NCBI RefSeq assembly: GCF_001685355.1
Contig: NZ_CP016438.1
Coordinates: 9,052,001-9,116,000, forward strand
Direction: 5' to 3'
Length of the DNA stretch: 64,000 bases
Source of the DNA: Streptomyces lincolnensis
GTDB lineage: Bacteria; Actinomycetota; Actinomycetes; Streptomycetales; Streptomycetaceae
Made by a program: the position numbers and the translations under genes. Below are positions 5,302 through 34,829 of this stretch, piece by piece (position 1 is the stretch's first letter; each line of letters starts with the position of its first letter). Under the pieces are notes generated by a model. That model worked only from the letters and a program-made list of their open reading frames with translations, searched no databases and was not told the origin of the DNA.

Positions 5302-6009
5302 ATGACAACGACACTGATCACCGGAGCGAACAAGGGCCTCGGATTCGAGGCCGCCCGACAGCTCGTCGCCGCGGGCCACACCGTGTACATCGGCGCCCGG
5401 GACACCGCACGCGGACGTCTCGCCGCCGAGCAACTCGGCGCCCGGTTCGTCCAGCTGGACGTCACCGACGACGCCTCCGTCCAGGCCGCCGCCAAGACCG
5501 TCGAGGCCGACGGCGGGCTGGACGTGCTGGTCAACAACGCCGGTATCGAACTGCGCGGCGAGGACAACAGCGTGCCCGGGGCCGCCGACCTCACCGCGGA
5601 CCAGATGCGGACGGTGTTCGACACCAACGTCTTCGGCCTGGTCCGGGTCACCCACGCGTTCCTGCCGCTGCTGCGCCGCTCGGCCGCGCCGGTCGTGGTC
5701 AACGTCGGCAGCGGCCTCGGCTCACTGACCAGGCTCTCCGACCCGGACCACCCCGGCTACGCCTATCCCGGCGTCGCCTACCCGGCCTCGAAGACCACGG
5801 TCAACGCGCTCACCGTGCAGTACGCGAAGGCGTTCCCGCAGCTGCGGATCAACGCCGTGGAGCCCGGGTTCACCGCGACCGACCTCAACGGCAGGACGGG
5901 CGTCCAGACCGTCGAGCAGGGCGCCGAGATCATCGTCCGCATGGCCCAGGCGGGCCCCGACGGACCGACCGGCACCTACGTCGACGCCGCGGGCCCGCTT
6001 CCCTGGTAG
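5302..6009 (+). CDS. Short-chain dehydrogenase/reductase (SDR)
   Basis: 235-residue classical SDR. The NADP(H)-binding motif TGANKGLG is at residues 7-14, NNAG at about 78-81, a catalytic Ser in the NVGSGLGS segment, and the YxxxK active site as YPASK near residue 155. The residue after the first strand (GARD) suits NADP preference. The substrate is not evident. It is divergent from the XRE/MmyB regulator and likely its target. Confidence 0.92.
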   Translation: MTTTLITGANKGLGFEAARQLVAAGHTVYIGARDTARGRLAAEQLGARFVQLDVTDDASVQAAAKTVEADGGLDVLVNNAGIELRGEDNSVPGAADLTADQMRTVFDTNVFGLVRVTHAFLPLLRRSAAPVVVNVGSGLGSLTRLSDPDHPGYAYPGVAYPASKTTVNALTVQYAKAFPQLRINAVEPGFTATDLNGRTGVQTVEQGAEIIVRMAQAGPDGPTGTYVDAAGPLPW

Positions 6010-6064
6010 GCGGAGTCACCGCAGGGAGGGGGCACTGTCAGACCCGCCGCCTAGCATGCCCACC

Positions 6065-6898
6065 ATGACCGAAGACCTGCTCGACCACTCCCGTCCGGGG
6101 CCGTTCACCCGGTTCCGCGCCGAGCAGTCGGCGACCATGGACGGCCTGCCGGACGACCCGGTCGGCATCTGCGCCGCCGTGCACAGCCTGTTCATCCAGC
6201 CGTTCGACGCCGTCCCGCTCGGCATCCCCGAGGAGCGGATGGCGGAGCGGAACATCCGCCCGGCGAGCGACCTGGTGGACAGGCTCACGGCACTCGACCC
6301 CGCCCCGCTGCACCGGACGCGGACACCGGAGGAGAGAGTGGTGGGCACCTGCCGTCACTGGGCGATCCTCGCCTGCGCGCTGCTGCGGGCGCGGGGGATA
6401 CCCGCCCGGGCGCGCTGCGGCTTCGGCACCTACTTCGAGGCGGGGCGCGGGTTCGACCACTGGATCACCGAGTACTGGAAGTCCGAGGAGCGGCGCTGGG
6501 TGCGCGTCGACGTGGAGCATCTGGACAAGGACCACGTCGAGCACCCCGAGGACCTGGCGCCCGGCGAGTTCCTGACCGGTGGCGAGGCCTGGACGCGGTA
6601 CCGCGCCGGTCTGATCGACCCGCAGACCTTCGGCGTCCCCGGCACCGACCATGCCTGGGGGCCCGCCGAGATCAGCGGCAACACCGTCCGCGACCTCGCG
6701 GCACTGGGCGGCCGGGAGATGCTGCCCTGGGACGAGTGGGGCCGGATGACCGAGGCCTACGACGGCCTGACCGGACCCGAGTACGACGACCTCCTCGACG
6801 CGGTGGCCGAAGCATGCGCCGGGCAGGACCCGGCGGCGCTGACCCGTTTGCTCGGCCACCGCGACCTGGCGGTCCCGGCGGACATGGCCGGCGGCTGA
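6065..6898 (+). CDS. Transglutaminase-like (papain-fold) domain protein
   Basis: 277 residues. The transglutaminase core is visible with the full catalytic triad: Cys96 in GTCRHWA, His132 in GFDHW and Asp149 in VRVDVEH. Members of this family are usually cysteine peptidases or amidases rather than cross-linking enzymes; the substrate is unknown. There is no signal peptide. I chose ATG 6065 over ATG 6056 because a TAGCAT -10 element ends seven bases before it, the usual spacing for a leaderless Streptomyces transcript. It is convergent with the CoA-transferase gene. Confidence 0.8.
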   Translation: MTEDLLDHSRPGPFTRFRAEQSATMDGLPDDPVGICAAVHSLFIQPFDAVPLGIPEERMAERNIRPASDLVDRLTALDPAPLHRTRTPEERVVGTCRHWAILACALLRARGIPARARCGFGTYFEAGRGFDHWITEYWKSEERRWVRVDVEHLDKDHVEHPEDLAPGEFLTGGEAWTRYRAGLIDPQTFGVPGTDHAWGPAEISGNTVRDLAALGGREMLPWDEWGRMTEAYDGLTGPEYDDLLDAVAEACAGQDPAALTRLLGHRDLAVPADMAGG

Positions 6899-6909
6899 GC
6901 GCCGCCCGC

Positions 6910-8103
6910 TCAGATCACCGCGTCGGCGCGCAGCGCCGCGATGTCGGTGGCGTCGCGGCCGAGTTCCCCGAGGATCGCCTCGGTGTGCTCGCCCACCGCC
7001 GGCACCGGGCCCATGCGCGCCGGCAGACCCGCCAGATCGGCCGGCGGCAGCAGTGCCCGCACCATGGCCCCGCCGGGGACGGCCACGTCCTGCCAGCGGT
7101 CACGCGCGGCCAGCACCGGGTGGTCCAGGAACGCGGCGACGTCGTTGACCCCGGCACAGGCGATGCCGATGCCCTCCAGATCCTTGAGGATCTCGGTGGC
7201 GTCGGAGCGGGCGACGCGCTCCGCGACGACGGCGTTGACCTCGTCGCGGTGGGCGACCCGGGCGGAGCCGGTCGCGAAACGCGGATCGTCGGTCAGCTCG
7301 GGCCGGCCCAGGAAGTCGGCGCACAGGACGGCCCACTCGCGCTCGTTCTGGATGGAGAAGAGCACGTCCTGTCCGTCGGCGGCCGTGAAGGTGCCGTACG
7401 GCGCGATCGTGGCGTGCTGAGCACCCAGCCGTGGCGGCTGGGTCCCGCCGTGCTCGGTGTAGTAGGCGGGCTGGCCCATCCACTCCGCCAGCGCCTCGAA
7501 GAGGGAGACCTCCACCGGGTGCGCCGTGCCCGTGGTGGCCCGGGTGAAGAGTGCCGTGAGGATGCCGCTGTAGGCGTACATCCCGGCGGCGATGTCGGCG
7601 ACCGAGATCCCGGCCCGCGCGGTCTCCTCGGCCGTCCCGGTCAGCGACACCAGGCCGGTCTGGCACTGCACCAGCAGGTCGTATGCCTTGCGGTCGGCCC
7701 ACGGTCCGGACGTGCCGTACCCGGAGATGGTGCACGGGATCAGCCGCGGGTAGCGGCCGGTGAGCGCCTCGACGTCCAGGCCGAGGCGGTCGGCCGCGCC
7801 CGGCGCGAGGTTCTGCACGAACACGTCCGCGCCGCCGAGGAGTTGGTGGAGTACCTCGCGGCCCCGCGGGTCCTTCAGATCGAGGGTGAGCGACTCCTTG
7901 GAGCGGTTCAGCCAGACGAAATAGCTGGAGTGGCCGTGCACGGTCGTGTCGTAGCGGCGTGCGAAGTCGCCCTCGCCCGGCCGCTCCACCTTGATCACCC
8001 GGGCGCCGAGATCGGCGAGCTGCCGGGTGGCGAAGGGCGCGGCCACGGCCTGCTCCAGGCTGACCACCGTGATCCCGGACAAAGGCCGTTGCGGGAGGCT
8101 CAT
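6910..8103 (-). CDS. Class III CoA transferase (CaiB/BaiF family)
   Basis: 397 residues, typical length. The family fold is visible: LADLGARVIKVERPGEGDFAR near the N-terminus (CoA-binding Rossmann part), LDLKDPRGREVLHQLL, and the conserved Asp142 in RKAYDLLVQ, the position of the catalytic aspartate in formyl-CoA transferase. These enzymes move CoA between carboxylic acids; the acid pair cannot be told from sequence. The start at 8103 is supported by a strong promoter whose -10 ends eight bases upstream, implying a leaderless mRNA. It is divergent from the quinone-oxidoreductase-like gene. Confidence 0.9.
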   Translation of the reverse strand: MSLPQRPLSGITVVSLEQAVAAPFATRQLADLGARVIKVERPGEGDFARRYDTTVHGHSSYFVWLNRSKESLTLDLKDPRGREVLHQLLGGADVFVQNLAPGAADRLGLDVEALTGRYPRLIPCTISGYGTSGPWADRKAYDLLVQCQTGLVSLTGTAEETARAGISVADIAAGMYAYSGILTALFTRATTGTAHPVEVSLFEALAEWMGQPAYYTEHGGTQPPRLGAQHATIAPYGTFTAADGQDVLFSIQNEREWAVLCADFLGRPELTDDPRFATGSARVAHRDEVNAVVAERVARSDATEILKDLEGIGIACAGVNDVAAFLDHPVLAARDRWQDVAVPGGAMVRALLPPADLAGLPARMGPVPAVGEHTEAILGELGRDATDIAALRADAVI

Positions 8104-8111
8104 GGGGCCCA

Positions 8112-8141
8112 TTTGTACGGGCGGGCCGGAGCGGCTGTCAA
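8112..8141 (-). promoter_or_regulatory. Strong vegetative-type promoter of the CoA-transferase gene
   Basis: A perfect -35 TTGACA (8136-8141) is separated by 18 bp from -10 TACAAA (8112-8117). The ATG at 8103 lies eight bases beyond the -10, so transcription should start at or next to the start codon. Confidence 0.75.
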
Positions 8142-8226
8142 CGGTAGGGCCTGGCCCCTGACCTGTACGTTTCCCGAGCCCGCGGCTGATCGGTGCCGGC
8201 GTTCGGCATGTGATTGCATGGGGGGC

Positions 8227-9150
8227 ATGAAGGCCATCGCACTGCATCAGTACGGACAGGACCTGAAGCTGGTGGACCACCCCGAGCCCAAGGTGGCTCC
8301 GGGGGAGGTCCTCATCCGAGTGAAGGCGGCCGGGGTGAACCCGGTGGACTGGAAGATCGGCGAGGGGTATCTCGACCCCATCATGGAGGCCCACTTCCCA
8401 CTGATCCCGGGCTGGGACGTGGCCGGAGTCGTCGAAGGGGTCGGTCTGGACGTCGAGGAGTTCGCGCCCGGCGACGAGGTGTTCGGCTACATCCGCAAGG
8501 ACTGGGTGCAACTCGGCTCCTACGCCGAGTTCGCCGCCGCCCACGTCCGCATGATCGCCCACAAGCCGGCCTCCCTCAGCTGGGAGGAGGCCGCCGGAGT
8601 GCCGCTCGCCGGACTCACCGCCTACCAGTGCATCAAGCGCGTCGGCGTCGAGGCCGGCCAGACCGTCCTGGTCCACGCAGCGGCCGGCGGGGTCGGCATG
8701 TTCGCCGTGCAGATCGCCGCCGCGCTGGGTGCGCGTGTCATCGGCACCGCGAGCGAGCGCAACCACGACTTCGTGCGCGGCCTCGGCGCGGAGCCCGTGA
8801 CCTACGGCGACGGACTCGTCGACCGCGTCCGCGCGCTCGCACCCGACGGCGTCGACGCGGCCTTCGACTTCGTGGGCGAGGGAGCGGTGGAGGTCTCACG
8901 GCAGGTCCTGAAGAGCCCCGACCGCCTGGCGTCCGTCGTCGACCCGGAGGCCGCCGAGAAGGGCGGCAAGTATGTCTGGCTGCGCCCCGATCCGGTCGAC
9001 CTCACGGCGCTGGCCGAACTGGCCGACCAGGGACGGCTGTCCGTCGCCATCGACCGGGTGCTGCCTCTCGCCGAGGCCGCGGAGGCCTGGCGCCTCAGCC
9101 GCGAGGGCCACACCCGGGGGAAGCTGGTCCTGACGGTCGGGGAGCGCTGA
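8227..9150 (+). CDS. NADPH-dependent quinone-oxidoreductase-like enzyme (zinc-free MDR family)
   Basis: 307 residues. The GroES-like N-terminal domain (MKAIALHQYG ... GVNPVDWKIGEG) and the Rossmann domain (HAAAGGVGMFAVQIAAALGARVIGTAS, about 157-184) are those of quinone reductase/enoyl reductase MDR proteins; zinc-ligand cysteines are absent. It is expected to reduce quinones or alpha,beta-unsaturated carbonyls with NADPH in the cytosol. The ATG at 8227 fits the family N-terminus better than the in-frame ATG nine bases upstream. It is convergent with the MarR gene across a hairpin terminator, and that regulator may respond to related electrophiles (inference). Confidence 0.9.
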   Translation: MKAIALHQYGQDLKLVDHPEPKVAPGEVLIRVKAAGVNPVDWKIGEGYLDPIMEAHFPLIPGWDVAGVVEGVGLDVEEFAPGDEVFGYIRKDWVQLGSYAEFAAAHVRMIAHKPASLSWEEAAGVPLAGLTAYQCIKRVGVEAGQTVLVHAAAGGVGMFAVQIAAALGARVIGTASERNHDFVRGLGAEPVTYGDGLVDRVRALAPDGVDAAFDFVGEGAVEVSRQVLKSPDRLASVVDPEAAEKGGKYVWLRPDPVDLTALAELADQGRLSVAIDRVLPLAEAAEAWRLSREGHTRGKLVLTVGER

Positions 9151-9165
9151 GGGCCGTCTCCGTGT

Positions 9166-9187
9166 CCCGGGGCTGTGTTCCCCGGGG
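9166..9187. terminator. Bidirectional hairpin terminator
   Basis: Inverted repeat CCCGGGG / CCCCGGG with a seven-base loop between two convergent genes. No T-tract, as is usual in Streptomyces. Confidence 0.6.
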
Positions 9188-9188
9188 C

Positions 9189-9647
9189 TCAGGCGGGAAC
9201 GCGGAGCGTCTCCACCGCCCGGACGAGCGGCGCCAGTTCGGGGTTGAGCGCGGCATGGTCGAGGGCCTCGCGCAGCGCGGCCTCGTTGGTGGGGCGGGCC
9301 TCCTTGAGCAGGTCGAGGCCCGCCTCGGTCACGTCGGTGTAGATGCCGCGGCGGTCCGTGGGGCACAGGTAGCGGGAGAGCAGTCCGCGGTCCTCCAGGC
9401 GGGTCACCAGCCGGGTCGTGGCGCTCTGGCTCAGCACCACCGCGTCGGCGACCTGCTTCATCTGAAGGTGACCGCCCGGCCCGTCGTGCTGACGGCTCAG
9501 CACGTCCAGCAGCGAGTACTCGCGCACACTCAGGTCGTGCTTCGCCTGAAGAGCCCGCTCGATGTGGGCCTCGATCCTGCCGTGCAGCAGGGACAGCGCG
9601 CACCAGCCCTGCGCGAGGGCGGTGAGTGCGGGGTCTGTGGCGGTCAT
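9189..9647 (-). CDS. MarR-family transcriptional regulator
   Basis: 152 residues. Winged-helix core with LSVREYSLLDVLSR, the recognition helix region LSQSATTRLVTRLEDRGLLSR and the wing CPTDRRGIYTDVTEAG, standard for MarR. A helical dimerisation region flanks it. The upstream side (9650-9720) contains a GAAATTTC palindrome at 9699-9706 that could be an operator. The regulated gene is unknown. Confidence 0.9.
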   Translation of the reverse strand: MTATDPALTALAQGWCALSLLHGRIEAHIERALQAKHDLSVREYSLLDVLSRQHDGPGGHLQMKQVADAVVLSQSATTRLVTRLEDRGLLSRYLCPTDRRGIYTDVTEAGLDLLKEARPTNEAALREALDHAALNPELAPLVRAVETLRVPA

Positions 9648-9775
9648 GGGGGCTGCTCCTCCGTCCCGAGGTGACGTCCTCCAGGATAGGGTATCGGTGA
9701 AATTTCCAGCGCGCGCACATATAGGGCGTGTGCAAGTAATGTGGGTGGGTGCAGCGATCAGTGGGGGACTCCGAC

Positions 9776-9898
9776 ATGACCGGCCGGTTTCGTCACCCGC
9801 TTCGAAGTCGACACGGAGTTCCTCGCCCGGTACCCCATCCAGCAGGCAGGCAGGCGATCCAGGAACTGTGGGTGCCGGCCGAGGAACTCGACGAGTGA
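9776..9898 (+). pseudogene. Remnant of a small conserved-looking protein with two frameshifts
   Basis: ATG at 9776 after a GGGGGA ribosome-like site. The coding trace runs MTGR in one frame, then FVTRFEVDTEFLARYPIQQAG in a second, then IQELWVPAEELDE and a stop in a third. The first shift is explained by one extra T in a TTT run near 9788. The second falls in a tandem GGCA repeat at 9844-9855, a classic slippage site. I recall similar short Streptomyces proteins with a FxTRFEV...LWVPAEEL pattern but cannot name a function. It may be a real decayed gene or a chance alignment. Confidence 0.4.
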
Positions 9899-9910
9899 CG
9901 GCCCTGGCGG

Positions 9911-10894
9911 CTATGGCCGCGCCAGATGCCGCATCGTCAGCGCCAGGTGGAGGCGGAGGCGGCCCTGAGGGGTGCGCAGGGGCCAGCCGAGGAGGTGCTC
10001 GGCGTGGGCCAGGCGGTCCTGGAGCGTGGAGTGGTGGACGTTGACCTCGGTGGCCGCCGCGCGCAGGCTCGCCGTCGAGGCCACGGCGTACAGGGTGGCC
10101 AACAGCCAGGGCGTGGTCGCTGCGGCCGACTCCAGGACCTGGACGTCCGGCGGCGGTTCGGCGCCCGGAGCGACGAGTTCGCCCAGGAGGGCGACGCCGC
10201 CCAACTCCTCGGCACGCACCACCCGCGGTCCAGGGTCCCGCGCGGTGCCCTCCGCCGTGAAACGCAGCGCTGTCCGCGCCGCGGCCCAGGAATCAGGCAG
10301 GTCGAGCACCGGTACGGCCGGACCGACGCCGAGGCGTCCGGCGGGCGGTTCGGCGTCGGCGGGGACGATCCGGGGACGGCCCTCCCGCAGGGCCAGGACG
10401 CGCGCCGGAGCGGCGACGTCCAGGCCCAGCCGGCGCGCCGCGTGCAGTCGCGCCGCCTCCGGAGCCGTGGCGTCCAGCACCGTCTCCACCAGCGCCGGGT
10501 CGTCGGCGGGCGCCCGGCCCCGAGTGCGGTCCAGCACCAGACGTACGGCGCCGGCGGCCCGCTCCAGGATCACCGCGTCCACCACACTCGGTGCCGCCTC
10601 CGAGCGCTCCAGCCACAGTGCCGGGGCACCGCCCGGGGCCAGCGCCGCGCACGGCCAGGCGGCGTCCGGCGGTACGTCCGAGTCGCGGCGCGTGCCGTCC
10701 GCCTCGATGCGAACCCGCACCCGACGCTCCGCGTCGGCCAGCCGGGCGGGCACCCCGGCCAGCACCGCCGCCCCGCGCACCAGCGCCTCCAGGCCGGCCC
10801 GGGACTCGGCCAGTCGGTCGAAGTAGGCGATGACCTGGACGGCGGCACCGGCGTCCGGATCCAGCGCGGTCAGACGCCCGGCCAGCTCTTTCAT
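9911..10894 (-). CDS. PucR/CdaR-type transcriptional regulator
   Basis: 327 residues. The C-terminus carries the PucR-type helix-turn-helix (TLYAVASTASLRAAATEVNVHHSTLQDRLAHAEHLLGW, about 265-305), and the N-terminus begins with the usual helical MKELAGRLTALDPDAGAAVQVIAYFDRL. The middle region is GAF/GGDEF-like in length but without recognisable ligand residues. I prefer ATG 10894 to the ATG 18 bases upstream because the family N-terminus starts here. No gene close by points to its effector. The gene is unusually GC-rich even for this window. Confidence 0.8.
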   Translation of the reverse strand: MKELAGRLTALDPDAGAAVQVIAYFDRLAESRAGLEALVRGAAVLAGVPARLADAERRVRVRIEADGTRRDSDVPPDAAWPCAALAPGGAPALWLERSEAAPSVVDAVILERAAGAVRLVLDRTRGRAPADDPALVETVLDATAPEAARLHAARRLGLDVAAPARVLALREGRPRIVPADAEPPAGRLGVGPAVPVLDLPDSWAAARTALRFTAEGTARDPGPRVVRAEELGGVALLGELVAPGAEPPPDVQVLESAAATTPWLLATLYAVASTASLRAAATEVNVHHSTLQDRLAHAEHLLGWPLRTPQGRLRLHLALTMRHLARP

Positions 10895-11274
10895 ACCCCC
10901 ATGGTGCGCCATCCGCTGCGATCCGGGGAGCCCGGCGAAGCGGCGGAGGCGGTGCGGGAGAAAGCGCGAGCGACGGCGCCGGTCCCGAGGGAGAGCTCCG
11001 GCCCCGCCCGTCTGGGGTCGGAGGGGGAGCTCCCCGGCTCGGCTCCTTCGGGACCGGGGGTGGCGGCGTCGGGGGGCTTGCCCGTCTGTGTCCCGCGGGA
11101 GAGGCTCCGCCTTGGCGCCCTGTCCGGGTCCCGAGGGACGCCTCGGCCGGCGCCGGGGCTGAGGAGGGCCGCCTCGGGGCTCCGCAGCCGTGGGACTGGC
11201 TCAGCCTGTCGCACCCCCTGCCGGCCCCGACGCCACGCCGCGCCCCCGCCCCGCCCACCCTCGTACGACGGACA
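10895..11274. other. Gene-free GC-rich intergenic region with inverted repeats
   Basis: 380 bp between the 5' end of the PucR gene and the 3' end of the esterase gene. No credible coding sequence. It holds a 12-bp perfect palindrome GGGGAGCTCCCC (11024-11035) nested between near-complementary arms at 10981-10993 and 11041-11055, and a third partial copy of the GGTCCCGAGGGA arm near 11124. These may form a terminator for nothing obvious or mark a dispersed repeat. Confidence 0.6.
10981..11055. repeat. Nested inverted repeat
   Basis: Outer arms GGTCCCGAGGGAG (10981-10993) and CTCCTTCGGGACC (11043-11055) pair with one mismatch. The loop contains the palindrome at 11024-11035. Confidence 0.6.
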
Positions 11275-12246
11275 TCAGGCCAGCAGCCTGCGCAGCCACT
11301 CCAGTTGGGCGGTGCGGGCCGCCTGGGAGAGGGCGGCTTGAGGGGCGAAGCCGTCGAAGCCGTGGAAGCCGCCGGGCCAGACGTGGAGTTCGGCCACGCC
11401 GCCGGCCTGCCAGATGCGGGAGGCGTAGGCGACGACCTCGTCGCGGAAGGTCTCCGCCGAGCCGACGTCCAGGAAGGCGGGCGGCAGCCCGGAGAGGTCC
11501 TCGGCGCGGGCCGGTGCCGCGTACGCGGGCACGTCCGGGCCGCCGCGTGCCTCGCCGAGCAGGGCCGTCCAGCCGGTCTCGTTCGCCGTACGGTCCCAGA
11601 CGCCGAGGCCCGCCATCTGGTGGCAGGAGACGCTCTCGTTGCGGTCGTCCAGCATCGGGCACATCAGCAGCTGGCCGATCGGACGGGGACCGCCGCGGTC
11701 CCGGGTGAGCAGGGCCAGTGCCGCACTGAGGCCCCCGCCCGCGCTGGCCCCCGCGAGGACGATCCGCTCCGGGTCGCCACCGATCTCCTTGGCGTGCTCC
11801 GCGGTCCACACCAGACCGGCGTACACATCCTCGATCCCGGCGGGATACGGCTGCTCCGGCGCCAGCCGGTACTCCACCGACACCACGACGGCGCCCAGTT
11901 CCTTCGCCCAGGCCAGCGGACCGTCCACGCCCACCCGGTTGTTGCCGAGGATCATGCCGCCGCCGTGCACGTGGTACACGACCGGCAACGGGCCCTGCGT
12001 TTCCGGGCCGGCCGGGCGGGCGATCAGGAGGGAGATGTCGGGGGCGCCCTCGGGCCCGGCGACCGTGCGGTCCTCGATCTCGAAGAACCCGCCCACGGTC
12101 AGGTCCAGCTCGGCCAGCATCTCGATGCCCGGCCCCTGCCGGACGACGTCGATGTCGTCCATCGTCAGGCCGGGCGAGATGACCTCCTTGATCAGTTCCA
12201 GGGTGGCGGCCAGCTCCGGGTCGAACGGGGGCGGGACGTGACTCAT
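11275..12246 (-). CDS. Alpha/beta hydrolase, hormone-sensitive-lipase family esterase
   Basis: 323 residues, cytosolic. HSL-family features are complete: oxyanion motif HGGG (VYHVHGGGMILGNNR), nucleophile elbow GASAGG (Ser), acid Asp in LDVGSAETFRDE and catalytic His in GGFHGFD. It is expected to hydrolyse short-chain esters; the natural substrate is unknown. The start ATG 12246 lies next to the structured 5' region shared with the divergent terC-like gene. Confidence 0.92.
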   Translation of the reverse strand: MSHVPPPFDPELAATLELIKEVISPGLTMDDIDVVRQGPGIEMLAELDLTVGGFFEIEDRTVAGPEGAPDISLLIARPAGPETQGPLPVVYHVHGGGMILGNNRVGVDGPLAWAKELGAVVVSVEYRLAPEQPYPAGIEDVYAGLVWTAEHAKEIGGDPERIVLAGASAGGGLSAALALLTRDRGGPRPIGQLLMCPMLDDRNESVSCHQMAGLGVWDRTANETGWTALLGEARGGPDVPAYAAPARAEDLSGLPPAFLDVGSAETFRDEVVAYASRIWQAGGVAELHVWPGGFHGFDGFAPQAALSQAARTAQLEWLRRLLA

Positions 12247-29478: not shown

Positions 29479-29742
29479 GCGGCAGGTGGTCGGGTGGTTC
29501 TCGCTGTCTTCCACCTGCTTGTCGGAAGGCGTCCAAGCAGCCGGCCGGCTCAGGCCGGTGCGGTTCGCGATTCCACGGTGTGGCTGTCTGTGGGCGGCTG
29601 AGGCAGGACTCATGCTGAACTGATACTGACTTTGCTGACGCCTCGTCAGGCTTGGGTGAGGGGATCTTCTCCAAGCTTCGGGGCTCGCGCGCAGGTGTTT
29701 GCGGGTTCTGTGGTGGCCGGATCGATGCTGACCTGGCCGGCG

Positions 29743-30165
29743 GTCGGCTCGGGCGTTGCGGAGGGACGGCGCTGCTCGCATGTGTTCGGCGCGGTCCTGG
29801 ACACCTTGAAGGTGCCCCGGCCGGCGTGGGACGTCCGCGCTCCAGACTCGAAGCCGTCATCGCGCACAGGGCGTATTCGTCGCGGGGGATGCGCCAGGTC
29901 CTGCGCCGGCGTGGCATCCGGGCGGTCGTCCCGGAACGGACAGACCGGAAAGCCGACCGGGTCCGGCGTGGACGGGTCGGTGGCAGGCCCCCGGCCTTCG
30001 ACCGCAAGCTCTGCAAGGCCCGCAACGCCGTCGGACGCTGCTTCGCCCGGTTCAAGTGGTTCCGGGCGATCGTGACCCGCTTCGACGAACTCGCCGCCCG
30101 CTACCGGGCCGGACTGCACCTCGTCCCACTCATCCTCTGGCTCCGCGAACCCCACCAAGATCATG
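29743..30165 (+). pseudogene. Inactivated IS5-family (DDE) transposase remnant
   Basis: Only the C-terminal half is recognisable. One frame gives VFGAVLDTLKVPRP; after a frameshift near 29825 the next gives RSRLEAVIAHRAYSS, RRRGIRAVVPERTD, GRVGGRPPAFDRKLCKARN and FDELAARYRAGLHLVPLILWL, the standard IS5-type C-terminus. The catalytic glutamate of the third DDE motif (normally RNxVERCFxRLK) is replaced by glycine (NAVGRCFARFK). The N-terminal catalytic part is gone and no terminal inverted repeats were found. It is therefore long dead. Confidence 0.8.
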
Positions 30166-30440
30166 TGCCGGGTGGGCCTGGCGCCGTGCGCTCAACTCGC
30201 CTGGAGCGGCGTGGCATTGACAACACCTTGTGCGCTCTGTCGCGTTTCAGGTTGATCACGCAGGCAGCAGCCCGGACGACGCCGGTCTGCCGTGCCCAGC
30301 GCCGGCCGCAAGGTGGCCAAGGCGCTGCGCTCCCCGTCCGCACGCCAGTTGGCACACTGACGTCGAACCGTTGACATGGGGGCCCGTATCTTCTCCGCGC
30401 CATGGTCGTTGGGAAACCCGGTCGTGGTTGGTCCGGTTGC

Positions 30441-31061
30441 ATGGGGGAGGCGGGGGTGGAGGTCAGGGATGTGCATCATGCCTACCGTCAGCGTGTGGTC
30501 CTGCGGGGCATTGACATACGGCTTCGGGCAGGGACGTTGTGTGGGATCGTCGGGGAGAACGGCGCCGGCAAATCAACTCTTCTGAAGATCCTTTCCGGTG
30601 AGATGCGGCCCTCACGCGGCACGGTCCGTCATGGTGGTCGGTTCGGTTACTGCCCGCAGCACGTGGTCCTCAACGACGCGCTGACTGTCCGGCAGCACTT
30701 GAGGTTCTTCCAGAGGGCCTATCGGCTGACCGATCTGCGGTACGCCGAGCAGGTGATGGACGTGCTGGGGTTCGCCGGTTACGCCGATGAGCGGGCAGGG
30801 ACTCTCAGCGGCGGGACGCGGCAGAAGCTGAACGTGACGCTGGCGCTGATGCACGATCCGCAGGTGCTCTTGCTGGACGAGCCGTATCAGGGGTTCGACT
30901 GGGACACCTACCAGCGATTCTGGGATCTCGCCGTGCGGCTGCGCGATGCGGGACGTTCGGTCCTGGTCGTCTCCCACCTGGCGTACGACACCGAGCGCCT
31001 GGACGAGTTGTGGCGTCTGGACGCCGGGGTACTCCGCCCGGACCAGGCGGTGACCACGTGA
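30441..31061 (+). CDS. ABC transporter ATP-binding protein (export-type)
   Basis: 206 residues, one ATPase domain. Walker A GENGAGKST, signature LSGGTRQK, Walker B LLLDEPYQG and an H-loop in VVSHLAYD are all intact. The short length resembles CcmA/drug-export ATPases. Start is ATG 30441; GTG 30456, after a GGGAGGCGGGG site, is an alternative. Its stop overlaps the GTG of the membrane gene. Together with that gene and the prenyltransferase fusion it forms a three-gene operon, so it probably powers movement of a product or lipid-linked intermediate made by the fusion protein (inference). Confidence 0.9.
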   Translation: MGEAGVEVRDVHHAYRQRVVLRGIDIRLRAGTLCGIVGENGAGKSTLLKILSGEMRPSRGTVRHGGRFGYCPQHVVLNDALTVRQHLRFFQRAYRLTDLRYAEQVMDVLGFAGYADERAGTLSGGTRQKLNVTLALMHDPQVLLLDEPYQGFDWDTYQRFWDLAVRLRDAGRSVLVVSHLAYDTERLDELWRLDAGVLRPDQAVTT

Positions 31062-31927
31062 GGTTTCACTTGACCCGGTTCGCTCTCGCCACCGGATTCG
31101 CGCTGACCGAGCACGGCCGCAACCGGTTCGCCATGGCCCTCGTGACCCTGTTCGTCCCCCTGTGGACGACCCTTGCCTACCTGGCCATGCCCAACACCCG
31201 GGCGCACATGCGCCTGCGTGCCACCGGGGAGACGCTGGCGCCCCACGGCAACGAACTGACCGAGATCAGCGGCGCGCTCAACGCGGTCACCCTGATCACC
31301 GGATTCATGATGTTCGCCGCCACCTTCTCCGGAAACCGCTTCGACCGCCGACTGGCGATGGCCGGCTACCCCCGCGCCCACCTCGTCCTGGCCAAGGTCA
31401 CCGCACTGGCTCTGGTCTCGGCGGCGGTCGCCGCCTACGCCACGGCGGTGACCTGCCTGGTCTGGACCCCCCGGCAGCCTCTGCTGCTCGCCGCCGCGCT
31501 GTTCAGCGCCGGGCTCACCTACGGCGCCCTCGGCGTCGGCTTCGGCTCGGTGCTGCGCCGGGAGGTCGAGGGCATGTTCGCCATCGTGATGACCAGCATC
31601 ATCGACCTCGCGCTGCAGAACCCGGTCACCAGCTCCGGGGCCGACAACCCGGTCATGCGCTACCTGCCCTCCTACGGAGCCATGCAGGTCAGCACGGCGG
31701 CGGGGTTCTCCACACACCCGGTGCCGCGCCATCTGGCCATCCAGCTCACCTGGTTCGCGGGAGCTGCCCTGATCGCCCTGATGGGCTTCTGCCGCAGCAC
31801 CCGCAGCGCCCTGCCCGTCACCACACAGTCCCCTGAGCCTGTGCCGGGAAGCGGTGCCGGCTCCCTTCCCGCGCCGCGCCGAACTGCCGCGCCATCGGCT
31901 GCGGCGCCCGACACGGAAGCACCCTGA
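31058..31927 (+). CDS. ABC transporter membrane protein
   Basis: 289 residues with about six hydrophobic segments (for example AMALVTLFVPLWTTLAYLAM, LITGFMMFAATFSG, VTALALVSAAVAAYATAVTCLVW, LIALMGF) and a hydrophilic Pro/Ser-rich C-terminal tail from about residue 250. It resembles ABC-2-type permeases in topology but I do not recognise a named subfamily. It is translationally coupled to the ATPase gene (GTGA overlap) and followed after 15 bp by the fusion gene. Predicted partner: the 30441 ATPase, with which it would form a homodimeric exporter. Confidence 0.8.
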   Translation: MRFHLTRFALATGFALTEHGRNRFAMALVTLFVPLWTTLAYLAMPNTRAHMRLRATGETLAPHGNELTEISGALNAVTLITGFMMFAATFSGNRFDRRLAMAGYPRAHLVLAKVTALALVSAAVAAYATAVTCLVWTPRQPLLLAAALFSAGLTYGALGVGFGSVLRREVEGMFAIVMTSIIDLALQNPVTSSGADNPVMRYLPSYGAMQVSTAAGFSTHPVPRHLAIQLTWFAGAALIALMGFCRSTRSALPVTTQSPEPVPGSGAGSLPAPRRTAAPSAAAPDTEAP

Positions 31928-31942
31928 GGTCCACGTCCCGAG

Positions 31943-33814
31943 ATGCGCAAGAAAACGCAGCCCACCCGCGCGCCCCTCGACACGGCCACGCACGCGTGGC
32001 GGGGCCGAGCCACCACCCGTGCGCTGATGGGCGAAGACCCCGTCCTGCGGGCGGCCTACCGGCTGTGCCGCCGCACCACACGAGCGCACGATCCCGGGAT
32101 CTACGCCCTCATCCAGCTCATGCCGGCCATCCTGCGCCCGGCGGGCTGGGCCTTGTGGGCGGCTGCCAGCGTCCTTGACGACCTGGCAGACGAACGCGGC
32201 GCGGAGTGGGCCGAGCGCTCGGCGCGCGTCGAGGCGTGGACCAGGGCGCTGAAGCACGATCTGGCGGCGGGCACGAGCACCGATCCGATTCGGTACGCCT
32301 TGGTGGACACCGCCGGTCGATGGCGTCTGGACCTGTCCAACCTGGAGGGCGCGATGGCCAGGGCGCGAGACGACGACCACGGTCTGCGTCTCCCCGACTG
32401 GGCCGCGTGGCGGGCCTGGAGCAACGAAGAAATCGTGCCCTGGGTCGATCAGGTACGGCAGCTGTTCGAGCAGGCCGGCGCACCGATGACGCTACGGCTG
32501 GACCGGCAGGCCGACTACGAACACTTCGTCGACGGCGCCCAGCTCACCGACGTTCTCACCGACCTGAGCACCGACCTCGCCGACGGCCACCTCCTCGTGC
32601 CGCAGGAAGCGTTGGAACCCTTCCCCGGCGCGGAAGCGGACCTGGTGCAGGGGCGCTGGAGTCCGGCCGTGGCGGCGTTGGTCGCCGAACTGACCGCCCT
32701 TGCGCGCCGACGGGTGACCAGGCCCGCCATGACGAGAGGAATGCACCCGGGTGCCGCCACCGTGCTCGACACGGCGGCAGAACTGATGCGCGCCCAACTC
32801 GACGCCATCGACGCGGCCGGTCCCACGCTGCTGAAACGCGCTCCGCGCCCGTCCGTCGTGGCCCGCGTCCGCGTGCTGGGACCCGCCCGCCTCCGCTCGG
32901 CCCTGGCCTGGAGCCTGACCCCCCTGACCGTGCCGGGTCCTCGACCACCTGTGGTGGGCGTGAGGGGTCCGAGCCCGGAAGCCGGTGGCGTCGCCGGGCT
33001 CCGGCCTCCGCCACCGCACCGCGACGGCGTCCGGCCCCCGCAGATCGCCGCTCACCACATGCCCTGCCACGTGGCGGTCATCATGGACGGCAACGGCCGC
33101 TGGGCAGAACAGCGCGGCCTGCCCCGTCATGAAGGCCACCGCGTCGGCACCGCCGTCGCGCACGAGATGGTCTACGGCGCCCTGGAGATCGGTCTGCGCC
33201 ACCTGACCCTCTACGCGTTCTCCACCGAGAACTGGCAACGCGGCACAGAGGAGATCACCACGATCCTGGCGGCATTCCAACGCGAACTCGACGAGGGCCC
33301 CCTCCGTGACCTGGACGTGCGCCAGCGCTGGTCCGGCCGGCCCGACAAACTGCCCGAGGAACTCGTCCATGCCCTCAGGCGCGAAGAGCACCGCACCCGT
33401 GACCGCACCGGACTGACACTCACTATCTGCCTCAATTACGGCGGCCGCGACGAGATTGCCCGGACAGCCGCGGCACTCGCCCAGGCAGCCCGAGAAGGTG
33501 AAGTAGACCCCCGCCTCCTCGGCGAGGACGACTTCGCCCGCCATCTGCCCCACCCCCACATGCCGGACGTGGACCTGCTGTGGCGCACCGGCAACGAACA
33601 GCGCACCTCCAACTTCCTTCCCTGGCACGCCACCTACGCTGAGCTGTACTTCACCCCCGGCTACTGGCCCGACAACGACCGACGTGACCTGTGGCAGGCC
33701 ATCACCGAGTACAGCCGACGCCAACGCCGCCACGGCGCCGTCCCCTCCTCCTCTCCTCCCCCGAAAACCACCGTCCGTCCCCTCGCGCCCGACCTGACCC
33801 CTGGGTCGCGCTAG
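31943..33814 (+). CDS. Fusion: squalene/phytoene-synthase-like domain + cis-prenyltransferase (UppS family)
   Basis: 623 residues, two enzymes in one chain. Residues about 30-300 resemble the squalene/phytoene synthase family: first aspartate motif DDLADE (79-84) and second motif in QLTDVLTDLSTDLADGHLLVP (Asp207, Asp211), the counterpart of LTNIxRDVxEDxxxGRxYLP. A Pro-rich linker (about 328-370) leads to a full cis-prenyltransferase: MDGNGRWA (catalytic Asp382), RHEGHRVG, YAFSTENW, LNYGGRDEI and WRTGNEQRTSNFLPW, then a Ser/Pro tail. All key residues of both halves look intact. It would make a cis-prenyl diphosphate and possibly condense or rearrange it. Unrelated folds fused this way are unusual; the product is unknown. 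Confidence 0.88.
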   Translation: MRKKTQPTRAPLDTATHAWRGRATTRALMGEDPVLRAAYRLCRRTTRAHDPGIYALIQLMPAILRPAGWALWAAASVLDDLADERGAEWAERSARVEAWTRALKHDLAAGTSTDPIRYALVDTAGRWRLDLSNLEGAMARARDDDHGLRLPDWAAWRAWSNEEIVPWVDQVRQLFEQAGAPMTLRLDRQADYEHFVDGAQLTDVLTDLSTDLADGHLLVPQEALEPFPGAEADLVQGRWSPAVAALVAELTALARRRVTRPAMTRGMHPGAATVLDTAAELMRAQLDAIDAAGPTLLKRAPRPSVVARVRVLGPARLRSALAWSLTPLTVPGPRPPVVGVRGPSPEAGGVAGLRPPPPHRDGVRPPQIAAHHMPCHVAVIMDGNGRWAEQRGLPRHEGHRVGTAVAHEMVYGALEIGLRHLTLYAFSTENWQRGTEEITTILAAFQRELDEGPLRDLDVRQRWSGRPDKLPEELVHALRREEHRTRDRTGLTLTICLNYGGRDEIARTAAALAQAAREGEVDPRLLGEDDFARHLPHPHMPDVDLLWRTGNEQRTSNFLPWHATYAELYFTPGYWPDNDRRDLWQAITEYSRRQRRHGAVPSSSPPPKTTVRPLAPDLTPGSR

Positions 33815-34220: not shown

Positions 34221-34829
34221 GTGGCTGAAGTGTCTGAAACAGAGGATGTGCGGTCGGCGTGGGGGCGGACAGCGTACTGGCTGACGGTGAACGCGCCGGT
34301 CAGCGCGCGGGCGCTGGGCGGGCCGGCGACGGATGAGGACATCGCGGGTCTGCGTGAGGCGTTGGGGTTCGACGTGCCCCATGTGCTCGAGGCGTTGCTG
34401 CGGATGAACAACGGCAGCACGGCGAAGGACACCTCGCGGGTGCTTCCCGACGGGCGGGTGATTCCCGTCCGTCATCTCGACTCGGCGATCTTCCCCTACG
34501 GAAGGATTCTTCTGGGATGCGCGGAGATCGCCAGGGAGTATGCCAAGTGGCGGCGGACGGAGGAAGAGAACGGCCTGGACGGCTACTGGAGGGTTTCCTG
34601 GGTCCCAGTCGTCCAGGACGTCGAAGGGCAGTACTACGGATACGCCGTGGACGCTTGCGGGGCGTCCGGTTTCTCCGTGCTGGAGTACGGCGAGGGCTCT
34701 GTTCCGCGCGAGGTCTTCCCCTCGCTGGGGACGCTGCTGGCGTCGTTCGCGCAAGCCCTGGAGAGCGGCAGCTGGGACGGGTGGCCCGCGCGGGTGGACA
34801 AGGGGTCGCTCAGCTGGGGTGAGGAGTGA
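34221..34829 (+). CDS. SMI1/KNR4-family (SUKH) protein
   Basis: 202 residues. The SUKH fold is suggested by PATDEDIAGLREALGF (start helix), VPHVLEALLRMNNGST, then the acidic-aromatic stretch SWVPVVQDVEGQYYGYAVDA and a C-terminal FPSLGTLLASFAQALESG helix. In bacteria these are frequently immunity proteins against polymorphic toxins or regulators; no toxin gene is seen beside it. Its start may be GTG 34221 or GTG 34230. Codon usage is less GC-biased than neighbours (gaagtgtctgaaacagagga near the 5' end), consistent with transfer. Confidence 0.8.
   Translation: MAEVSETEDVRSAWGRTAYWLTVNAPVSARALGGPATDEDIAGLREALGFDVPHVLEALLRMNNGSTAKDTSRVLPDGRVIPVRHLDSAIFPYGRILLGCAEIAREYAKWRRTEEENGLDGYWRVSWVPVVQDVEGQYYGYAVDACGASGFSVLEYGEGSVPREVFPSLGTLLASFAQALESGSWDGWPARVDKGSLSWGEE

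Follow-up and report, generated by a model that had tools for sequence, protein, structure and literature searches.

Prenyltransferases of the phytoene-synthase-like (PSL) group (CqsB4, LvqB4, NzsG, NozPT and DmtC1) are single-domain enzymes of the squalene synthase (SQS) fold that use short donors. In the lavanduquinocin-type pairing, LvqB4 is accompanied by CLDS, which has the fold of cis-prenyltransferases such as UppS, and a UppS-fold enzyme feeds its donor to an SQS-fold transferase. Here we analyzed a 64,000-nucleotide stretch of the Streptomyces lincolnensis genome (contig NZ_CP016438.1, positions 9,052,001 to 9,116,000, called 'the window'; features are given in its coordinates, and the fusion and the two transporter genes lie on its forward strand), in which a gene at 31943..33814 joins an SQS/phytoene synthase (PSY)-like domain and a UppS domain in one protein of 623 amino acids (aa). 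Our leading interpretation, over which we are almost evenly divided and which is drawn from sequence, is that of a bifunctional enzyme that would make a Z-prenyl diphosphate and pass the prenyl group to a non-prenyl acceptor, the product being exported. The donor would be supplied as in the CLDS/LvqB4 pairing; CLDS and LvqB4, however, are separate proteins, and CLDS-type enzymes are distant from the UppS domain of the fusion (E about 1e-12).

The gene starts with ATG and has no internal stops. Its N-terminal SQS_PSY-fold domain (aa 47-302; 32081..32848) matches Pfam family PF00494 with 58.7 bits (E 9.6e-16, cut-off 26), and its C-terminal cis-prenyltransferase domain (aa 380-598; 33080..33736) matches PF01255 with 224.2 bits (E 1.9e-66, cut-off 27). 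The sequence-only reading of this DNA had described just such a single frame, and it was right on this point, including the SQS/PSY similarity of the N-terminal half. Between the domains lies a proline-rich linker (32924..33058), with low predicted local distance difference test scores (pLDDT) at aa 337-349 of the predicted structure. Its last part, 'PHxxGxRPP', resembles the lead-in of stand-alone actinobacterial UppS: PHPSGAR(A/P)P precedes the UppS core both in a relative (L001) and in 7cpm, the dodecaprenyl diphosphate synthase of Thermobifida fusca. When the window gene was compared with 19 relatives (the first 19 of 65 in list order), the N domain gave dN/dS values of 0.28-0.41 and the UppS domain values of 0.19-0.49, and the linker had the highest value of the three regions in 18 of the 19 comparisons. 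Both halves of the fusion are under purifying selection.

The same architecture is found well beyond this genome. When six aligned N domains were used to scan GTDB species genomes, 140 relatives emerged, of which 80 were taken; 74 of these belong to the fusion family. The other six (L108-L113) resemble CrtB genes and adjoin CrtI-like genes, named by eye, and they were left out of the count. A single open frame holds both domains in 65 of the 74 family loci, a few of which share an organism; four run off a contig end (L061, L068, L080 and L089) and five are broken or masked (L041, L057, L075, L076 and L105). The hosts are Streptomyces, plus one each of Actinokineospora, Saccharothrix and Embleya. 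The gene is a natural fusion of two unrelated folds, as had been proposed, and both of them are apparently active. A further relative, G027, has lost its N-terminus.

Among 246 Streptomyces genomes drawn, at least 28 have matches to the N-domain profile at 1e-50, the copies being not all intact. In a class-wide draw of 394 genomes, at least 264 match at E 1e-20, mostly with what seem to be ordinary SQS/PSY genes; at least five exceed 380 bits, all of them Streptomyces, and the next match has 164 bits. These counts are lower bounds, since only a few first-look candidates were scored per genome (five in the class survey, eight in the genus survey). The N-domain profile was used because a genus survey with the whole-length protein was swamped by ordinary UppS genes.

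Trees placed 30 fusion N domains in a single clade (100/100) and gave 33 fusion UppS domains their own clade, on a long branch (99/100). The UppS domains of L081, L082, L084 and L088 have LLSTENL where most others have FSTENW; as they are nested inside the fusion clade, a single origin is preferred and independent fusion events are disfavoured. The fusion apparently arose once and has been kept in many species. Capture of a whole UppS gene is suggested by the UppS half, which still carries a lead-in peptide (PHPSGAR-P) like the one ahead of the core in stand-alone actinobacterial enzymes. The source genome (10.3 Mb, one contig) has two further PF01255 genes as well as two adjacent PF00494 genes about 0.45 Mb from the fusion, resembling an HpnC/HpnD pair; the fusion is therefore not the sole copy of either function.

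A search of the full-length protein by fold gave UppS-type structures only among the 50 matches listed; for this reason the N domain was modelled by itself. The AlphaFold2 model (pLDDT 92.4, predicted template modelling score 0.89) has the all-alpha class I isoprenoid synthase fold, and its top structural matches in the PDB (Foldseek and VIA) were LvqB4 and CqsB4, at about 20% identity, tied with CrtM-like structures. Both aspartate motifs are present: DDLADE (aa 79-84; 32177..32194), with D79 and D83 in 66 of 66 aligned fusions and D80 in 63, and LTDVLTDLSTD (aa 201-211; 32543..32575), with D207 and D211 in all 66 and D203 in 65; aa 200-211 of the protein read QLTDVLTDLSTD. The four aspartates of the two DxxxD motifs (D79, D83, D207 and D211) are thus invariant.

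The sequence-only reading had called this half a head-to-head synthase-like domain. Head-to-head synthases and their relatives (CrtB, CrtM, HpnC and HpnD) do have PF00494, the fold and the two aspartate motifs in common with the fusion, and so this part of the claim held; the residues that mark the head-to-head type did not follow. We aligned 30 fusions with 12 head-to-head-type rows, whose labels, assigned in the present analysis (three by PDB name, three by adjacent CrtI-like genes, two as the adjacent pair of the source genome, four by similarity alone), are perhaps partly circular, and with 10 PSL-group rows (CqsB4, LvqB4 and eight genes that we labelled ourselves); L033, L132, L134 and five other rows of unclear function were set as separate groups. 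Asn203 is present in 11 of 12 head-to-head-type references and in none of the 30 fusions; Arg206 in 10 of 12 and none of 30; Arg76 in 12 of 12 and 10 of 30; Tyr159 in 12 of 12 and 11 of 30. Two of these positions are thus wholly replaced in the fusions and two mostly, and the full head-to-head set that most of the 12 references share (an Arg before motif 1, Tyr159, and LTN-xx-R before motif 2) is not theirs.

What the fusions have instead is a PSL-like pattern, derived in the present analysis rather than taken from the literature: Asp203 replaces the Asn (29 of 30 fusions, 9 of 10 PSL-group rows) and Arg206 is lost (kept in 1 of 10 PSL-group rows). In the PSL group the Asn of LTN is Asp in 9/10 and Glu in 1/10, Arg76 is absent in 10/10 and Arg206 in 9/10, and most fusions are alike; fold and both aspartate motifs are shared with the PSL enzymes as well. 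In a tree, the N domain leaned towards the PSL enzymes (split support 89/91), a grouping short of significance in the test given below; its score against the NCBIfam HpnD model, 49.4 bits, was far below the cut-off of 278.6. By these residues, designation of the N-terminal half as a head-to-head isoprenoid synthase is not supported, and its pattern appears closer to that of PSL prenyltransferases such as CqsB4 and LvqB4. The differences from PSL enzymes are the fused cis-prenyltransferase, the loss of Glu210 in most fusions, and the fact that no aromatic-acceptor pathway was seen nearby.

For the C-terminal domain, the nearest structure is 7cpm, at 48% identity. D382, R386, S427, N430, R433, R548, R554 and S556 are conserved in 66 of 66 fusions and H399 in 65, residues with catalytic roles in such enzymes; with the PF01255 match, this agrees with the earlier statement that all UppS-type motifs are present, and the cis-prenyltransferase active site is complete. 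The full active site and a similar lead-in peptide are shared with actinobacterial UppS and with deca- and dodecaprenyl diphosphate synthases (Rv2361c and 7cpm). Unlike these, the domain is fused, belongs to its own long-branch clade and has a shorter segment after STENW: it is 27 residues long in 52 of the 66 fusions (it could be measured in 63) and 29 long in seven of eight stand-alone genes, the eighth, L002, being outside this pattern. Ala425 presumably points to a product that is not short-chain, by a position rule for these enzymes; the LLSTENL variant in L081, L082, L084 and L088 may make a shorter one.

Directly upstream of the fusion are an ABC transporter ATPase gene (30402..31061; PF00005, 97.2 bits), the first gene of a likely operon, and an ABC-2 type permease gene (31058..31927). 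If the permease starts at the GTG at 31058, the two genes overlap by 4 nt; its longest frame, from 31010, matches PF12698 with 29.1 bits, just below the cut-off of 31.6. The permease stop is 15 nt from the fusion start, in the same direction. Homologues of the ATPase and permease form a pair directly upstream of the fusion in 29 of 74 family loci (the gene calls of neighbourhoods, from a simple codon-position script, are approximate).

Relatives of this transporter also stand beside unfused genes. A search with the window permease gave matches in 59 of 246 Streptomyces genomes; from 68 matches listed we fetched 20 loci, mostly the strongest, excluding those already in the set or beside a fusion. 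Eight of the 20 have an unfused SQS-like gene at most about 3 kb from the ABC pair, each with a polyprenyl synthetase-type (trans-type) gene, confirmed by PF00348 in L160, L162, L164, L171, L172 and L173 and by tblastn only in L163 and L166; as L171-L173 were chosen with prior knowledge of an SQS-like match in the same contig, the figure without them is 5 of 17. L156 and L157 gave weak synthetase matches only (45 and 49 bits, with no profile test), and no SQS-like, synthetase or UppS match was found with the queries used in L158, L159, L161, L165, L167, L168, L169 and L170. Two loci were found with an SQS-like query, which makes the presence of their SQS gene a matter of construction; this does not apply to their UppS, exporter and synthetase genes. 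One, L152 (G482, 5770-10398), combines within 5 kb separate UppS and SQS-like genes, a polyprenyl synthetase and a transporter of the window's ABC family; in the other, L151 (G493, 7054-10915), UppS, the SQS-like gene and an MMPL exporter stand side by side. The SQS-like genes of L151 and L152 retain the Asn and Arg of motif 2, and their chemistry may thus differ from that of the fusion. Across these loci, the SQS-like partner is thus repeatedly accompanied by an exporter and by a prenyl diphosphate synthase of trans or cis type.

We propose the following sequence of steps. The C domain very probably adds isopentenyl diphosphate in cis to an allylic primer, giving a Z-polyprenyl diphosphate, probably of medium length. 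The N domain would then bind this diphosphate with Mg2+ through its two aspartate motifs and ionise it; the prenyl group would go to a non-prenyl acceptor in PSL style, rather than into head-to-head coupling of two prenyl diphosphates. Finally, as gene order suggests, the upstream ABC-2 transporter may move the product across the membrane. A chained reaction, also part of the sequence-only reading, is the best explanation of a fusion of apparently single origin kept in many species, together with unfused SQS-like genes that adjoin both a prenyl diphosphate synthase gene and relatives of this transporter; the head-to-head coupling that had been given as an example of it is weakened by the residue losses.

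Several observations weigh against transfer to a non-prenyl acceptor followed by export. By sequence, the best PDB match of the N domain was HpnC, with LvqB4 behind, and an approximately unbiased (AU) test did not reject an alternative to the PSL grouping (p 0.319). Glu210 is kept in 10/10 PSL-group and 11/12 head-to-head-type rows and in only 4/30 fusions (8/66 in a larger alignment), and in the PSL group only two rows of 10 carry enzyme names that come from experiment. The UppS domain seems to be medium-chain, whereas the known PSL donors are short. The partner of the unfused genes is trans-type throughout the eight loci, with a UppS gene in only one (L173); and L132 and L134, the SQS-like genes of L151 and L152 that do lie by a separate UppS, keep the Asn and Arg of motif 2, unlike the fusion. 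The ABC pair is not directly upstream in 45 of 74 family loci; DUF6230 with DUF6114 precedes the fusion in 17 loci and a YihY/BrkB-type gene in 12. Among the neighbours of the window fusion, we recognised no gene for making an acceptor. Some of these points would suit an N domain that joins two prenyl diphosphates, at least one of them cis-made by the UppS domain, into a C30-C110 hydrocarbon by head-to-head or irregular coupling: HpnD as well as HpnC is among the best sequence matches, grouping with head-to-head enzymes survives the AU test, the Asn203 and Arg206 of L132 and L134 are those of such enzymes, and the PF00494 match and both aspartate motifs are in place. We consider it unlikely, however, as none of the 30 fusions in the alignment with references has Asn203 or Arg206, 20 lack Arg76 and 19 lack Tyr159, and as desaturase or squalene-cyclase genes were not recognised among annotated neighbour clusters, a minority of the clusters.

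A similarly low probability is given to an N domain that ionises one prenyl diphosphate and ends the reaction by water or cyclisation, as a YisP-like polyprenol-forming phosphatase or a class I terpene synthase working on the Z-prenyl diphosphate; YisP and terpene synthases were weaker structural matches than LvqB4, CqsB4 and CrtM, and P450 and GMC genes occur in one subfamily only, which is not that of the window. The loss of canonical SQS-site residues, including the Glu210 kept in both reference groups, would fit a non-catalytic N domain acting on where the UppS domain is located, how stable it is or how long a chain it makes; this appears improbable, given the four motif aspartates in 66 of 66 fusions, dN/dS well below 1, and the unfused SQS-like genes that also adjoin relatives of the same transporter. 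Finally, in two relatives, G009 (C1, about 3105781-3105881) and L057, a frameshift in the proline-rich linker puts the domains in overlapping frames (sequencing error, decay or recoding are possible causes), which might raise the suspicion of an assembly or sequencing artefact that joined two genes; such an artefact is ruled out, to a probability we regard as negligible, by the 65 of 74 loci with both domains in one open frame.

If prenyl transfer to a non-prenyl acceptor is what the fusion does, the organism may make and export a not yet described isoprenoid, and an undescribed isoprenoid pathway would be present in roughly a ninth of the Streptomyces species sampled (28 of 246 genomes, with copies not all intact). 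The adjoining transporter points to an exported product, open to search by comparing wild type and deletion strains, and a natural fusion of an SQS-fold and a cis-prenyltransferase domain offers a direct test of whether SQS-fold enzymes accept long Z-polyprenyl donors. One could speculate further that the gene represents, in fused form, a so far unrecognised Streptomyces module (an ABC-2 exporter, an SQS-fold prenyltransferase and a cis or trans prenyl diphosphate synthase) for making and exporting prenylated lipids of a new class, with an SQS-fold enzyme using its own long Z-polyprenyl diphosphate for the first time; this broader proposal we find possible but distinctly more doubtful. Both domains are from known families, and SQS-fold prenyltransferases are already known. 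No description of an SQS_PSY::UppS fusion was found in open-licence literature, judged mostly from titles, which is weak evidence of absence; the earlier remark that no characterised example is known agrees with this, within that literature. A degraded copy on an S. tendae plasmid is annotated 'uppS: polyprenyl diphosphate synthase' (with a hypothetical protein), a name under which genome mining would miss the N domain.

Other isoprenoid fusions adjoin the ABC family of the window in two more of the 20 fetched loci: in L154 (5418-7733) a polyprenyl synthetase is joined to a CrtC N-terminal and a Lipocalin_9 domain, and in L155 (9959-11365) to a weak Lipocalin_9 match. This is, by sequence, another putative isoprenoid fusion type tied to that transporter family. 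A protein of ~200 aa with a signal-like N-terminus recurs by the ABC pair, whether fused or not (L036, L047, L081, L082, L084, L088, L161, L164, L165, L167, L168, L169 and L172); it has no Pfam match in the two copies tested and is possibly a further part of the module. In L055 (Streptomyces sp. B93, about 9038-11608), permease, SQS-like and UppS domains share one open frame of about 857 codons; this may be a natural triple fusion, or a stop codon may have been lost. Upstream of eight family fusions there are P450 and GMC oxidoreductase genes, six of these loci having the DUF6230 and DUF6114 pair as well.

Some SQS-like genes of the PSL type have other neighbours: cyclodipeptide-synthase-like genes in L146, L147 and L149 (recognised by eye from a motif rather than by profile), methyltransferase genes, also by eye, in L145, L147 and L149, and a partial UppS-like stretch about 2 kb away in L145. 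These four loci are candidate clusters for prenylated diketopiperazines.

Within the window, a remnant of an IS5-family transposase at 29652-30371, just upstream of the ABC ATPase, suggests past mobility nearby. GC content at third codon positions is 0.80-0.88 in the ATPase, permease and fusion genes and 0.94-0.98 in four other window genes sampled; it is likewise low (0.85) in the SMI1/KNR4 (SUKH-1) family gene at 34221-34829, downstream of the fusion.
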